This document shows positions 3,225-9,863 of a DNA stretch of 47,586 bases, piece after piece. Below the pieces are notes generated by a model, which did not search any database, had not been told where the DNA came from, and saw only the letters and a list, made by a program, of their open reading frames with translations. The number at the start of each line of letters is the position of its first letter. Within the stretch, counting starts at the first letter, position 1. The DNA comes from a virus. The stretch covers positions 1-47,586 of the IMG/VR virus record IMGVR_UViG_3300009545_000290, one strand, 5' to 3'. A program made the position numbers and the translations under genes.

Positions 3225-4895
3225 TCAGATGGAAAGGCGGACGGCGCCGGGGCCGTCGTCCGCCACGATCCCGCGAGCCTTGAGCCGTAGTAGGTATTGG
3301 TCGGTGCTCGATTTCTTTTTCCCGGTGGCTTCCTGGATCGCGGCGCGCCTCAGCGATGGGCCGTCTGAGACGAGCAAGTCCATGATCCGCCGCTCCCCCT
3401 CCGGCAATTCTCGCCGATAGTGATCGACCAATGCGGCGCCAGTCGGCAACGGCGTGTAATCGCCGAGCGCCGACTCCGCGGCCTCCGTGGGGCTGATGTG
3501 TTTCTTGTCGATTGTGATCAGGCCGCGGCCGGCCAGACGAACGAGGTACTGATCCCTGGACGATTTCTTGAGGCCGACCAACACGCTCAGCCGACTGCGA
3601 TCCAGCCCTGGGAATTGCACCACGGCGGTCAACACCGCCCGCTCGCCAGACGGCAGAGCGCCAGTGTTAGAAGCGTTCTCAGATGTCTGAGTAGGCTTCT
3701 GAGACGCGTCGATCGCTCGCCGCGCGCCGGGGAATACCCGAGACGCGCCGGGGGCGGCGGCGGTGCCGGCAGAACCGTTCTGAGGAGGTTTCTCGGTAGT
3801 CTCAGAAGTTCGCCGCGCGAGCGCGTCCGCGAGCCCCTTCGCCGCCAGGGCGATCTGTCCGGAGAAGCTGATCCCGAGTTTCACGAGATGTTCGACGCGT
3901 TCGAGCTGGCCTTTCTTCAACACGAATTTTTCAATCGTCCGCGTTTCGACTTTCGGTTGCGCATTCTTGGCGGCCGTCAACTCGCGGCGCGCCGTGGCCA
4001 GTGCGGCGCGCAATTCCGTCACGCTCTGTTCGCGCGCTTCGGCTTCCGCCGGCAGATCCGACAGCTTCGGCAACAGCGCCTTGATCTTGGCGGACGGCGC
4101 CGGCACGATGGCCGCCAGGCCGCCGGCCTTCGGATGCTTCGTCGTGACCCCGCCGACGTGAACCTTCGTCACCACGCGCGAGAGCGCCGGCCCGAAGGCG
4201 AAGAATTCGCCGTCCTCCAGGTCCCGGAGCTGCAACCGCGTCGCCTTCGTGAAGCCTAATTCTTCGCCGGCTCGCGCCATGTCGACATCGAGCGAGGTTC
4301 GGCCGATCAGCTTGTTATTCAACTCGGCCGCGGCATCCTTCGCCAGCTTCGAGAGCCGTTGGGTCGCGAGGACCGCGCAGAAACCGCGCTTCCGCCCGAG
4401 GCTACAGAGCCCCTTGACCGCGTCGGCGCTCTCCGCTTCCCCGCTCTCCGGACAGTAGACGTGCGCCTCGTCGAGCACCACCAGGACCGGATGCCAGAGT
4501 TTCTTTGGCGCGTCGACGAGCGCCTCCAGGAACAGCCGGACGAATCGCACGCGTTCGTGCCGCGGCAGTTCGTAGATGTCGAGGATCGCCGAGACGCCCA
4601 CTTCGAGCAACCGCTCGGCCAGCAGCTTGGCCGTGCGCGGATCCGCCAGCGTATCGCCGCCCTTGCGCGCCGCGAGCACGTAATCGTATTTCTCGCGGAG
4701 GCTGGCGAATTCCCCCTCGGGATCGATCACGATCTGCTGCACCTTGCCGTGTGATTGTTCCAGGAGCCGGCGCAACAGCCACGATTTACCGGCGCCGCTG
4801 GAGGCCTGCACCAACAGCCGCGTCGCGATCAGCCGCGGGAGATCACAGGTGACGCCGGGGCCAATTACGAGCCGCTTTTTCATGGGCGCAAGCAT
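3225..4895 (-). CDS. HerA/DUF87-family P-loop ATPase with C-terminal winged-helix repeats
   Basis: A 556 aa protein from the ATG at 4895, which has an AGAAAGGG ribosome-binding site; ATG 4883 is an alternative. Walker A is SSGAGKS (residues 32-38), Walker B is VLVVLDEAH (D142/E143), and ATQRLSKL follows near residue 190, as in HerA/FtsK-like DUF87 ATPases. A long helical region with a low-complexity linker leads to two related winged-helix-like repeats (GLKKSSRDQYLVRL and GKKKSSTDQYLLRL). Related ATPases occur in prophages and plasmids, usually without an assigned role; DNA translocation, processing or segregation are possible. The linker is encoded over two TTCTSAGAA-like pairs. It is divergent from the dual-HTH gene. 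Confidence 0.85.
   Translation of the reverse strand: MLAPMKKRLVIGPGVTCDLPRLIATRLLVQASSGAGKSWLLRRLLEQSHGKVQQIVIDPEGEFASLREKYDYVLAARKGGDTLADPRTAKLLAERLLEVGVSAILDIYELPRHERVRFVRLFLEALVDAPKKLWHPVLVVLDEAHVYCPESGEAESADAVKGLCSLGRKRGFCAVLATQRLSKLAKDAAAELNNKLIGRTSLDVDMARAGEELGFTKATRLQLRDLEDGEFFAFGPALSRVVTKVHVGGVTTKHPKAGGLAAIVPAPSAKIKALLPKLSDLPAEAEAREQSVTELRAALATARRELTAAKNAQPKVETRTIEKFVLKKGQLERVEHLVKLGISFSGQIALAAKGLADALARRTSETTEKPPQNGSAGTAAAPGASRVFPGARRAIDASQKPTQTSENASNTGALPSGERAVLTAVVQFPGLDRSRLSVLVGLKKSSRDQYLVRLAGRGLITIDKKHISPTEAAESALGDYTPLPTGAALVDHYRRELPEGERRIMDLLVSDGPSLRRAAIQEATGKKKSSTDQYLLRLKARGIVADDGPGAVRLSI
3676..3705. promoter_or_regulatory. TTCTSAGAA-like pair inside the ATPase gene (1)
   Basis: TTCTCAGAT at 3676-3684 and TTCTGAGAC at 3697-3705 each match the TTCTSAGAA palindrome at 8 of 9 positions. 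Their centres are 21 bp apart, the same spacing as the pair at 4901-4930. They lie in the low-complexity linker of the ATPase gene. They may be binding sites for the same regulator, or relics of a spreading repeat. Confidence 0.45.
3778..3807. promoter_or_regulatory. TTCTSAGAA-like pair inside the ATPase gene (2)
   Basis: TTCTGAGGA at 3778-3786 and GTCTCAGAA at 3799-3807 each match at 8 of 9 positions, with centres again 21 bp apart. A weaker half-match (TTCTCGGTA) lies at 3790-3798. The pair is about 100 bp from the previous one, in the same coding linker. Confidence 0.45.
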
Positions 4896-4900
4896 ACCCT

Positions 4901-4930
4901 TTCTGAGAAGTCTTCGCACTTTTCTCAGAA
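4901..4930. promoter_or_regulatory. Divergent operator: paired TTCTSAGAA palindromes
   Basis: The 55-base gap between the ATPase start (4895, leftward) and the dual-HTH gene start (4951, rightward) holds TTCTGAGAA at 4901-4909 and TTCTCAGAA at 4922-4930. Both are perfect, with centres 21 bp apart, i.e. two helical turns on the same DNA face. A weak -10-like TACACT at 4938-4943 ends seven bases before the ATG at 4951. The natural reading is an operator controlling both divergent genes, perhaps bound by the dual-HTH protein. Confidence 0.65.
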
Positions 4931-5997: not shown

Positions 5998-6422
5998 AAC
6001 GCGTGGGGGACGACGATCCCAAGCGGATCGACTACTTCGGCGCGTTCCAGGTCGGCGTGCCGAAAGACATCGGCTGGGCGATCGTGGTGCTGCACGAGGA
6101 CCGCACGGTGACCCGGACGTGCAAGGGCTGTGGCGTCACGGCGCGGTCGACCATCGGACCAGCCGGCCGCGTGGCCGAAGCGGAAATTCATCATCTCTGG
6201 CCGGGTGCGTGGTCGTCGCGCGGCTCGGCAACAATCCGATCAACTCGTAGAACACGGTTCTCAGAAATTCCGGTTTTTCTGAGAACCGTTTTCGCAGACT
6301 CCCGCCCCGAATCCACTTTCGCCGATCAGACAGCGAAGGTCCCTTCGCCAAAAAGGGTCAACAGACAGCCTCGGAACGGCCGCCGAAAAGGGACAACAGG
6401 AAGGGGACAACTGAGAGGGTGA
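5994..6422 (+). CDS. Small protein with a CKGCG motif; C-terminus runs through repeat element B
   Basis: At most 142 aa. Residues 1-75 look genuine (YFGAFQVGVPKDIGWAIVVL, then CKGCG and HHLWPG). From about residue 85 the frame passes through the inverted repeat at 6254-6289 and becomes a basic low-complexity tail that reaches into the iterons. The tail suggests that insertion of the repeat, or a lost stop codon, has extended an originally shorter protein. The start overlaps the previous stop as ATGA. Confidence 0.6.
   Translation: MKRVGDDDPKRIDYFGAFQVGVPKDIGWAIVVLHEDRTVTRTCKGCGVTARSTIGPAGRVAEAEIHHLWPGAWSSRGSATIRSTRRTRFSEIPVFLRTVFADSRPESTFADQTAKVPSPKRVNRQPRNGRRKGTTGRGQLRG
6254..6303. repeat. 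Inverted repeat element B (copy of element A)
   Basis: Arms 6254-6267 and 6276-6289 (14 bp) surround an 8-base loop and are followed by TTTT. The palindromes TTCTCAGAA (6258-6266) and TTCTGAGAA (6277-6285) lie 19 bp apart. The arms and the downstream CGTTTTCGCAGACT match element A near 941-990. The two copies bracket the left module. It could act as an intrinsic terminator for the rightward genes and/or as an operator, despite lying in an open frame. Confidence 0.7.
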
Positions 6423-6449
6423 AAGCGGCCAACAGGAGGGGACAACTGG
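6351..6449. repeat. Iteron cluster AAAGGGGACAACWG
   Basis: Four same-strand copies of an AAGGGGACAAC-type iteron occur at 6351-6364 (AAAAGGGTCAACAG), 6386-6400, 6401-6413 and 6436-6449, with a degenerate copy at 6422-6436. The same sequence recurs three times inside the initiator-like gene downstream (7570-7593 and 7679-7690). Iterons of this kind mark replication origins bound by a cognate initiator. Confidence 0.7.
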
Positions 6450-6455
6450 CGGGGC

Positions 6456-6640
6456 CACGTAGATACGAAGATCGGATCAGGACGGAGAGGGGGACGTAGA
6501 TCACGGACGGATCAGGACAGGGGGCTCACGCCCCCGCGCGCATCACCGGGGGGCGAAAGTCGGACCGGAGGGGAGATCCGCTTGACGAACCTTCGCAAAA
6601 ATTACAATTGACACTGGCAGAAACAACCACTGGTGGCGGT
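6456..6640. other. Origin-proximal region: direct repeats, GC hairpin and less GC-rich patch
   Basis: Two imperfect direct repeats sharing ACGTAGAT and GGATCAGGAC lie at 6457-6487 and 6493-6520. A GGGGGC-TCAC-GCCCCC hairpin follows at 6520-6535 without a T run. The stretch 6586-6613 is markedly less GC-rich than the rest of the genome and could be an unwinding element next to the iterons. No coding frame here looks genuine. Confidence 0.4.
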
Positions 6641-6752
6641 CGGAATTCCCACCACAAGTCGAGGGGACACCAACGCACGCGACGGCGCGACAGGGACAGC
6701 TCGCGGCGCGCCGCGTTAGGGGACCTGTCAGAAATATCCGCGAGGCCGATAC

Positions 6753-6789
6753 GCGTACGGGTGTAAGGTTCCTGACGTAACACCCGCGT
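6753..6789. promoter_or_regulatory. Inverted-repeat operator with GTGTAAG / CGTAACACCC
   Basis: A left arm CGTACGGGTGTAAG faces a right arm CGTAACACCCGCGTACG, giving an imperfect inverted repeat of about 14 bp. The right arm contains the motif seen at 14921 and 19379. It is about 400 bp upstream of the initiator-like gene. An operator for a dimeric regulator is the simplest reading. Confidence 0.5.
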
Positions 6790-6924
6790 ACGAAATCACT
6801 GCGCTCCTGTGAATCATCGAGTCAGGGACCCGCGGATGCCACCAGGTGCTACAACATGACCGCGGATGGATCTGGCTTGTGCCAGGTCGATGACGCACGT
6901 CCGTTGACCCACCAGATGCAGGGA

Positions 6925-6955
6925 TCCCAAGCCCTTGGACCCCAAGCACTTGACA
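6925..6955. repeat. Two 15-base direct repeats
   Basis: Two near-identical units, CCCAAGCCCTTGGAC and CCCAAGCACTTGAC, lie in tandem next to the terminator of the minus-strand small RNA. The significance is unknown; binding sites or a remnant are possible. Confidence 0.35.
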
Positions 6956-6976
6956 ACCGCGGTAGACTGAACGGGC

Positions 6977-7017
6977 AAAAACGAAAACGGCCTCGCGAGT
7001 GGCAACTCGGAGGCCGT
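6977..7017 (-). terminator. Rho-independent terminator, minus strand
   Basis: An 8-bp GC-rich stem plus a 5-bp inner stem with a tetraloop, followed by a T-rich tract at 6987-6977 on the minus strand. The plus-strand 3' flank has no T run, so it is directional and points leftward. It terminates the candidate small RNA. Confidence 0.75.
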
Positions 7018-7051
7018 CAGGTGTGGCGAGGAAGGCCGCACCGCGAGAACA
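6977..7051 (-). ncRNA. Candidate leftward small RNA, about 75 nt, OOP-like position
   Basis: The expected +1 is about seven bases after the -10 at 7058-7063. The RNA would end at a strong intrinsic terminator: stem ACGGCCTC/GAGGCCGT (6987-6994 with 7010-7017), an inner CGAGT/ACTCG stem, one bulged base and a GGCA loop, followed on the minus strand by TTTTCGTTTTT. It lies upstream of and antisense to the leader of the initiator-like gene. In lambda, the OOP RNA of similar length is made leftward from just upstream of gene O. Promoter and terminator are visible; function is inferred. Confidence 0.6.
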
Positions 7052-7057
7052 GCCCGG

Positions 7058-7086
7058 ACAATAGCACGGCCCGACTGTCCGGTCAA
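7058..7086 (-). promoter_or_regulatory. Sigma70-type promoter, leftward
   Basis: On the minus strand, TTGACC (7086-7081) is separated by exactly 17 bases from TATTGT (7063-7058), matching the -35 and -10 consensus at 5/6 and 4/6 positions. The only downstream unit before the terminator is the candidate small RNA of about 75 nt. Confidence 0.6.
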
Positions 7087-7182
7087 CGGCCTTCCAGCGC
7101 TACACCCCTCACAATTTTTGCCGCTCGCGGACGTTCCGCGGGAGAGGCGTAGCGACGTGCAGTTTCGTGTTACGGCGGCGTC

Positions 7183-8040
7183 ATGAGTCAGCCGATCGTC
7201 AATGCCGTGTGGCGTTCCGATCTGCCTGATTTCTTGAAACGTGGTGTCGCCGGCAAACTCGCCGCCCTGGCCGACGACGACGGCGATTTCACCCACCTGA
7301 CCGTCAAATATCTGGTCGATTCGCGCTACGGCCGCGAGCGGCGCCGGCTCTGCCGGCAGACCATCAAAAATCAACTCCGGGCGCTCGAACGGTGCGGGTT
7401 CCTCCGCATCCTCACCAACGGCGTCGGCCGCGGCCATGCCCGGATCTACTCGCTGCACCCGGAGGCGCTGACGACCGTCCAGGCCGACGATCCGATGCTT
7501 CGGCCGCCGCATCGCCGCACCGGCAAAGGCGTCGAGGGGCGGATCCTCGTGCTCCGGCGCCCCAGCCGCAAAGGGGACAACAAAGGGGACAACGGGGCCG
7601 AAATCCCCGAGATTTCGCCGGATTTGCCCGATTCCACGCACGCGCCGCCGCACGGACCACCGACCGGCACGCACTGGCAAAAGGGACAACCGCACCGCTG
7701 GGATGCCGTGCGTACGCCCAACCAGAACTACAAAGTTATGGTTCGGCTGGCGCATACCTACATCGTCGATCTCCTCGAAGACGCCGCCGGCATCACGCAA
7801 CGCGGCGAGGACACCGAGGGGACCGGGATCGAAAACTTCAAGCGGCTGGTCGCGAACAAGCTGCCGGGCCAGATGAAGAACACCGGGCAAATTCTCGCCG
7901 CCCTGGACAGCGCCGCCTATCGCCGCCGGAGCCTCGGGATCCCGGTCCCCGCCTACATCGGCACTTGCGGCCAGCAAGCGTTTCTCCTCCAACGTCACCA
8001 GCACAAGGGAGCCGGCCATGTACGAATGGACGCGCGCTGA
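7183..8040 (+). CDS. Probable replication initiator (lambda O-like), HTH domain
   Basis: A 285 aa protein. The N-terminal 100 residues look like a winged helix of the phage replication-protein type (HLTVKYLVDSRYGRERRRLC, TIKNQLRALERCGFLRI, ARIYSLHP). A Pro/Arg-rich linker is encoded partly by three AAAGGGGACAAC iterons (KGDNKGDN), and a C-terminal helical domain follows. Placing origin iterons inside the initiator gene is the lambda O arrangement. The ATG at 7183 has only a weak ribosome-binding site (GGCGG). No helicase loader or helicase is found nearby, so host helicase use is likely. The assignment rests on architecture, not on a clear motif. Confidence 0.65.
   Translation: MSQPIVNAVWRSDLPDFLKRGVAGKLAALADDDGDFTHLTVKYLVDSRYGRERRRLCRQTIKNQLRALERCGFLRILTNGVGRGHARIYSLHPEALTTVQADDPMLRPPHRRTGKGVEGRILVLRRPSRKGDNKGDNGAEIPEISPDLPDSTHAPPHGPPTGTHWQKGQPHRWDAVRTPNQNYKVMVRLAHTYIVDLLEDAAGITQRGEDTEGTGIENFKRLVANKLPGQMKNTGQILAALDSAAYRRRSLGIPVPAYIGTCGQQAFLLQRHQHKGAGHVRMDAR
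7570..7690. repeat. Iterons inside the initiator gene
   Basis: AAAGGGGACAAC is repeated in tandem at 7570-7581 and 7582-7593, and AAAAGGGACAAC occurs at 7679-7690, all on the plus strand. They match the upstream cluster at 6351-6449. The tandem pair encodes KGDNKGDN, a repeat in the protein linker. Confidence 0.7.
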
Positions 8041-8302
8041 CCGTGGCGGATTTTGTGGCGGCTGTAATCGTCCGTACGAGAGCGGGGACCGCGTCCGCCT
8101 CACCAGCGTGATCGGCGTGACGCGAAAATTCGTCCGCTGCGCTGAGTGCGCGGGCGGCGCGCCGCCGGAGCTGCCGGCCGACCAGGCGCCACCGGCGCCG
8201 AATCGCGATGGCCTCGCGCCGTTGCAGAGCGTTCGGCCGACCACGCGCGGCGATCTCCGCCGCATGGCCGGCAGCGTGCTGCGGGCTGTCGTCAATGATT
8301 AG
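8018..8302 (+). CDS. Small zinc-ribbon protein
   Basis: A 94 aa protein with CGGC near residue 13 and CAEC near residue 42, separated by a beta-rich segment (YESGDRVRLTSVIGVTRKFV), typical of a zinc ribbon. The C-terminal half is Pro/Ala-rich. An AAGGGAG ribosome-binding site precedes the ATG, which lies inside the end of the initiator gene. The function is unknown. Confidence 0.7.
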   Translation: MYEWTRADRGGFCGGCNRPYESGDRVRLTSVIGVTRKFVRCAECAGGAPPELPADQAPPAPNRDGLAPLQSVRPTTRGDLRRMAGSVLRAVVND

Positions 8303-9029: not shown

Positions 9030-9863
9030 ATGATTCACGTTATTTCGCTCGGCGCGGGCGTGCAGTCGTCGGCGCTCTGCCTGATGGCCGCCGCTGGCGA
9101 AATCTCACCGATGCCGACCTGTGCGATCTTCGCCGACACGCATCACGAACCACGCGCCGTGTACGACTGGCTCGATTGGCTCACGCCGCGTTTGCCATTT
9201 CCGGTGTACCGCGTCACGGGCGGCGATCTCTGGAAAGCGGCATCGACCATCCGGCGGACCCGCGACGGCCAGCGGACCTATATCTCAACCGGCATCCCGA
9301 TCTACTTCGTCAATGGCGACTTGGGCTCAGCCACACGGAAGGGCATGGGGAAGCGGCAGTGTACGCGCGGTTTCAAGACGACGCCGATCACGCGGAAGGT
9401 CAAGGAACTGGTCGGCCTCAAGCGGGCGACCAAAAACACGCCGGTGCTCGCGACCACCTGGATCGGCATCAGCGCCGACGAACCGCAACGGGCGAAGCCG
9501 TCGCGTGAACCGTGGATCGTGAAACGACACCCTTTGTTGGAACTGGACATGGATCGCGAGGACTGTATCGCCTGGATGAAGGCGCACGGGTTTCCGCGTC
9601 CGCCGCGCTCGGCCTGTACGTTTTGCCCGTTTCACAACGACACGGAATGGTTGGCGCTCACGCCCGAGGAATTCGCTGATGCGGTCGTGAAAGAGCGCGA
9701 GATCCAAGCCGCCTATGCGAGAACCTCGTTCCCGAGCGGCATCCCGTACCTGCACGCGCAACGGATCCCGCTCGATCAAGTGGTGTTAGTGCCGACGCCC
9801 GCACCAGCGCGCCCGCTGCGGATGCTGTTCGGTCCTGAGTGCGAAGGTTTGTGTGGAGTCTGA
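9030..9863 (+). CDS. PP-loop ATPase, phosphoadenosine phosphosulfate reductase-like
   Basis: A 277 aa protein. The N-terminal PP-loop reads ISLGAGVQSSALCLM (residues 5-19), then CAIFADTHHEP. Further motifs are QCTRGFKTTPI, TWIGISADEPQR, SACTFCPFHND and a C-terminal ECEGLCGV. This is the phage family usually annotated as PAPS reductase or adenine nucleotide alpha hydrolase; its members activate a substrate with ATP. The conserved Cys residues suggest a metal or iron-sulfur site. The true role, such as sulfur or nucleotide modification, is not known. It follows the DUF1064 gene after five bases. Confidence 0.85.
   Translation: MIHVISLGAGVQSSALCLMAAAGEISPMPTCAIFADTHHEPRAVYDWLDWLTPRLPFPVYRVTGGDLWKAASTIRRTRDGQRTYISTGIPIYFVNGDLGSATRKGMGKRQCTRGFKTTPITRKVKELVGLKRATKNTPVLATTWIGISADEPQRAKPSREPWIVKRHPLLELDMDREDCIAWMKAHGFPRPPRSACTFCPFHNDTEWLALTPEEFADAVVKEREIQAAYARTSFPSGIPYLHAQRIPLDQVVLVPTPAPARPLRMLFGPECEGLCGV

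Follow-up and report, generated by a model that had tools for sequence, protein, structure and literature searches.

A hallmark of plasmids is that antisense RNAs control the synthesis of their initiators, and plasmid antisense RNAs that set incompatibility typically change in their loops. In the CopA/CopT-tap-repA system of R1, a two-hairpin antisense RNA is combined with a leader ORF that is coupled to the initiator. Among phages with an O-like initiator, the best-known RNA neighbouring the initiator gene is OOP, whose role in replication is debated. OOP of lambda is a 77-nt leftward, self-terminating RNA encoded just upstream of O, the gene that contains the origin (PMC3349717). It lies antisense to the cII 3′ end (PMC3349717, PMC3985674) and is reported not to alter the stability of the O-P mRNA, and its promoter pO is thought to affect replication by interference (PMC3985674). 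The countertranscript RNA (ctRNA) of the Rhizobium RepABC plasmid p42d (Rfam RF00489) is antisense to the leader of an initiator gene which also harbours the origin; in the absence of ctRNA the ribosome site is held open by a long stem, and in its presence the leader refolds (PMC3155836). The REx-C modules of Pseudomonas plasmids are portable blocks, consisting of antisense-RNA stem-loops and a leader peptide, that precede different initiators; their stems show compensatory changes and their specificity resides in one loop, and the R1 system is cited in the same work (PMC5304414).

The whole stretch of DNA analysed here, the window (47,586 nucleotides), belongs to an environmental phage catalogued as an IMG/VR virus record; its tailed-phage genes include terminase, portal, and capsid. 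It encodes a replication initiator of 285 amino acids at 7183-8040 (+) (phrog_270/4617), with a lambda-O-like layout in which repeats lie inside the gene; tandem CAAAGGGGACAA repeats at 7569-7592 (+), with a third copy at 7678-7689, are candidate origin iterons. Upstream genes end near 6250, and 6300-7150 contains no recognised gene. The original prediction had placed a -35/-10 pair with 17-bp spacing on the minus strand of this region, at 7086-7058, and these coordinates are exact: TTGACC occupies 7086-7081, TATTGT occupies 7063-7058, and the spacer ends in TGC (extended -10). By itself such a promoter match is within chance (one found in 14 kb vs. about two expected), but since promoter, hairpin 1, and terminator are conserved in place in relatives, the RNA element as a whole stands above chance. 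The predicted antisense RNA of about 75 nt (6977-7051, minus strand) would fold into two hairpins (-34.7 kcal/mol, z -4.2), and 0 of 200 shuffles were as good. Hairpin 1 (7020-7042) carries the pyrimidine-rich loop CTTCCTC (7028-7034). The intrinsic terminator (7017-6977), which had been called strong, comes second among the terminator-like sites of the window when hairpin energy and T tail are scored, whether the minus strand or both strands are counted; its stem ACGGCCTCCGAGT/ACTCG(c)GAGGCCGT with the loop TGCC spans 7017-6987 and is followed by TTTTCGTTTTT up to 6977. Open frames cross the RNA site; visual comparison of the window with the related contig L006 suggests that the frame is not conserved, and we accept the earlier view that the RNA has no coding capacity.

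Four further virus contigs have the same element ahead of an O-like initiator gene; it is whole in L006, L008, and L049 and cut in L028, which starts inside the element. Promoter, hairpin 1, and terminator occupy the same place in the three whole relatives (terminators at 6122-6090 in L006, 4791-4759 in L008, and 2931-2901 in L049), and the promoter portion of the element is present in the truncated L028, in line with the conservation of promoter and stem that had been proposed as a check. TTGAC...CSGGYCGTGCTATYGT of the promoter is common to all four contigs. L006 and L008 (terminase 78% identical) share the arrangement of the window, with TTGACG-17-TATCGT, a hairpin with a pyrimidine-rich loop of 6-7 nt, and a terminator ending in GGTTTCGCTTTTC. 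L049 was recovered by a promoter-core scan, without protein-based selection, and has the same RNA and the same small Cys-motif gene downstream; the same scan revealed that L028 is cut within the element. When a covariance model was built from L006, L008, and L049 only, it matched the window element best (32 bits, E 5.8e-6) and the RNA site was top-scoring in 150 kb, and in a leave-one-out model the truncated L028 scored with E 0.0032. The comparison comprises four complete members (the window, L006, L008, and L049), two of them closely related; a further contig, L001, is practically the same virus as the window (99.96%) and adds nothing to it.

Most of 25 viral matches to the promoter pattern were unrelated, the true ones being already known contigs, L049, and the contig of L028 (L055). 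Four pattern matches in genome contigs were rejected, as they showed no recognisable terminator or arms, and a weak covariance-model match in L018 was dismissed because it sits in tRNA-like sequence. A search for TerL relatives in genome contigs returned none. TerL relatives at 62-65% (L007, L029, L030, L032) carry an inverted cassette without the RNA element. No match was obtained when 6200-8100 was compared by blastn with 50,697 phage records, the plasmid collection contained no DNA similarity of substance, and no Rfam family was reached in the window at gathering score.

By position, the RNA would be complementary to the initiator mRNA leader, if this message is transcribed from a promoter-like block, TTGACA-N7-TAGACT, at 6950-6968 (+). 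Such a rightward block, TTGACA-N7-TAnnnT, lies just past the RNA 3′ end in all complete members (TTGACA-N7-TATAGT in L049). Since it lacks a -35 at normal distance from the -10-like hexamer, it is uncertain where the message begins; with a start near 6975, its first ~75 nt would lie opposite the RNA. The complement of hairpin 1 is arm 1 of the leader (7020-7038, +), which is also complementary to arm 2 (7087-7106, +), an element situated between the antisense promoter and the initiator, outside the RNA, and resembling the antisense RNA in sequence. Folds of the whole leader in the window, L006, L008, and L049 contain arm 1 paired with arm 2, enclosing an inner hairpin (7054-7082 in the window, +; CCGGACA/TGTCCGG with the loop ATAGCACGGCCCGAC). 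The stems of this inner hairpin vary in sequence between lineages, yet are paired in all five members. A test of the arms by duplex folding against shuffles was weak for the window and L006, and a cross-pairing matrix was therefore used in its place. There, for each of the four complete members, the most stable pairing of arm 1 is that with its own arm 2 (own vs. best other arm 2, in kcal/mol: -35.0 vs. -24.6 for the window, -31.7 vs. -25.9 for L008, -32.5 vs. -26.9 for L049, and -24.8 vs. -23.7 for L006). Beyond arm 2 follow a Shine-Dalgarno-like GGAGAGG (7141-7147, +) and a 9-codon leader ORF, VQFRVTAAS* (7157-7186, +), whose stop overlaps the initiator start (ATGA). Comparable overlaps exist in L006, L008, and L028; L049 lacks a clear leader ORF that has a good start. 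The original prediction, sound as to the RNA itself, had missed the covarying arm 2, the leader ORF, and the hypervariable loops.

These loops come to light when L006 and L008 are compared. Inside the RNA 25 of 89 columns differ vs. 8 of 471 in the flanks used (p 2e-15), a statistic that refers to one phage pair and to regions drawn after the alignment was seen. Most of the changes fall in the two loops, that of the terminator and that of hairpin 1, and in the linker; there are none in the terminator stem and none in 35 positions of the promoter. In arm 2, 4 of 15 positions are changed, and these changes restore pairing with the altered loop. Changes in the RNA loops together with matching ones in arm 2 are as expected if loop and target were co-selected for specificity. 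Ahead of the initiator the two contigs are near-identical, and from there on they diverge; initiators of the other members share only 12-28% identity with that of the window in the alignment. The control block therefore stays in place across exchanges of the initiator gene. Matches of the initiators to the PHROG ‘replication initiation’ and ‘O-like’ families are weak.

In order to consider how pairing might affect the initiator, leaders were folded with the RNA-covered part masked, and the segment in between was shuffled 150 times per member. Masking reduces the accessibility of the ribosome site in all four complete members (0.13, 0.14, 0.15, and 0.08, reached in 4, 3, 3, and 6 of 150 shuffles, respectively), and the direction of control would therefore be repression. 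New pairing with the tail of arm 2 appears in L006, L008, and L049 (matched by 2, 1, and 0 of 150 shuffles). The drop in the window does not come about via this tail, for which 127 of 150 shuffles gain as much pairing, and involves pairing with other sequence. A cross matrix of tails and ribosome sites showed that this pairing is not cognate-specific.

Considering the conserved promoter and terminator, the two-hairpin RNA, the covarying arms, the ORF overlap, and the hypervariable loops, all of which can be read from the sequence, we think it probable that a cis-encoded antisense (countertranscript) RNA controls the initiator by pairing with the leader and refolding it, both transcripts being predicted ones. 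The leader of the initiator mRNA would be read rightward from the conserved block at about 6950-6968, and the antisense RNA would be read leftward across the same stretch and would thus be complementary to it. Without the RNA, arm 1 would pair with arm 2 around the inner hairpin, the ribosome site of the leader ORF would be more open, and translation of the leader ORF would lead to synthesis of the initiator by coupling via the ATGA overlap. At rising copy number, the RNA might accumulate and capture arm 1 via its pyrimidine-loop hairpin; arm 2 and nearby sequence would then be freed and could fold over the ribosome site, and initiator synthesis would drop. Control of the initiator leader or of copy number, which had been suggested as a role for the RNA, is the best-supported function, of which repression and the sensing of copy number are what we infer.

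With regard to known systems, the original prediction had likened the RNA to OOP of lambda. The likeness holds for length, direction, and position, i.e., for a predicted ~75-nt leftward self-terminating RNA directly before an O-like initiator. It does not extend to the target, as no cII-like gene is overlapped here and the complement of the RNA is the non-coding initiator leader, nor to sequence, as there is no DNA similarity to the lambdoid oop/pO region among the phage records searched by blastn and no Rfam match. The plasmid countertranscripts seem to provide a nearer working model: they resemble the predicted short RNA in consisting of a loop hairpin and a terminator hairpin, and in having specificity loops that diverge between near-identical replicons, here in the one pair L006/L008. 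The RepABC ctRNA works much as proposed for the phage RNA. In contrast to it, the RNA described here belongs to a phage with an O-like initiator and has its own promoter just before the initiator, and no partition genes were found, nor a ParA-type AAA_31 in the window, L006, L008, or L049. Low-threshold Rfam matches were to two plasmid ctRNA families, below the cut-off; RF00489 attains 17.1 bits in L049 vs. a gathering score of 50 (E 0.39), and ctRNA_pGA1 (RF00236) 18.4 vs. 45 bits (E 0.21). As in REx-C, the control block appears to be kept while the initiator is exchanged, but it is found in tailed phages, and DNA similarity of substance is absent from the plasmid collection. A two-hairpin antisense RNA and a leader ORF coupled to the initiator are shared with R1 CopA/CopT-tap-repA, which differs in sequence and initiator, and Rfam CopA is not matched. 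We assign the RNA to no family; by analogy it would act like a plasmid countertranscript, but in a phage.

Other explanations may be considered. The RepABC ctRNA causes the repC leader of p42d to form an intrinsic terminator (PMC3155836), and pairing of the phage RNA might likewise attenuate transcription before the initiator gene. Although a T run follows arm 2 in the window, L028, and L049, the T runs lie several bases past the arm and in a scan of the window, L006, L008, and L049 the interval from arm 2 to the initiator contained no strong rightward terminator, which makes attenuation unlikely. Slightly less probable still is an effect of leftward transcription itself, and not of the RNA, on rightward transcription into the origin, which it would lower in the way that lambda pO reduces transcription from pR and tunes ori-lambda (PMC3985674). 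The geometry is shared, i.e., convergent and just upstream of an O-like gene with internal repeats, but a merely interfering promoter predicts neither changes concentrated in loops nor matching changes in arm 2 outside the RNA.

The loop pattern would not be expected from a protein operator either. Dyad symmetry across the promoter in all five members might suggest that the inverted repeats work as DNA, either as an operator bound by a phage repressor or as a hairpin origin, with the RNA being incidental. However, the arms of L006 and the window contain one-base bulges and offsets, as would suit an RNA helix more than an operator with symmetry, a real terminator is maintained together with its conserved stem and its T tail, and the promoter is fixed while the loops evolve fast, so that we regard a DNA element as improbable. 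That promoter and terminator coincide by chance and no RNA is made would agree with the frequency of the promoter pattern taken alone, but is very improbable for an element conserved in five contigs and recovered by the leave-one-out model. Least probable of all is an RNA acting in trans on another phage message or a host message. Its pyrimidine-rich loop could pair with host mRNAs, but covariation links the RNA to its own leader, and the proposed search for targets by base pairing found 11-mer complements at no more than two other places in the window.

Several features of the neighbourhood of the control block may be mentioned. Ten copies of GGGACAAC occur in the window vs. 1.6 expected, six of them within 1.3 kb (6390-6446 and 7574-7690), flanking the RNA module on both sides; these are candidate iterons, some within the initiator gene and some outside it. 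After the upstream gene block, a near-perfect inverted repeat of 18 bp followed by a short T tail (6250-6293) likely marks the end of an upstream rightward operon. In L006 (5690-6050) and L008 (4360-4720), about 360 nearly unchanged bases without recognised gene precede the module. Shortly after the initiator, the window encodes a small Cys-motif protein (8018-8302), as do L006, L008, L028, and L049; it is also found after the inverted cassettes of L007, L029, L030, and L032 and is a conserved companion. A PAPS-reductase-like gene (9033-9860; phrog_424, E 2e-43) belongs to the early region, and a HerA/FtsK-like ATPase (3225-4904, minus strand) has relatives in twelve other virus contigs, which gave no clear match to the RNA module. 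L030 and L031 derive from one 84-kb contig (IMGVR_UViG_3300010362_000012) on which the same terminase region is present in both orientations, an inverted duplication that is perhaps an assembly artefact. Integrase, resolvase, and ParA-type ATPase were sought in the window, L006, L008, and L049, whose records are perhaps incomplete, and none was found.

More tentatively than the control of the initiator by the antisense RNA, one might propose that the fast-changing loops serve as an immunity or incompatibility determinant in a block that is carried to different initiator genes, a possibility that we consider rather doubtful at present. If true, the RNA of a resident phage would silence the initiator of an incoming phage with the same loop allele, resulting in RNA-coded exclusion groups, and the control block is a clear test case for such superinfection exclusion. 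It could also be relevant to how phages in which no integrase is found persist outside the chromosome. More generally, if O-like genes were preceded by a control block of plasmid style, this would show how replication control is shared between phages and plasmids.
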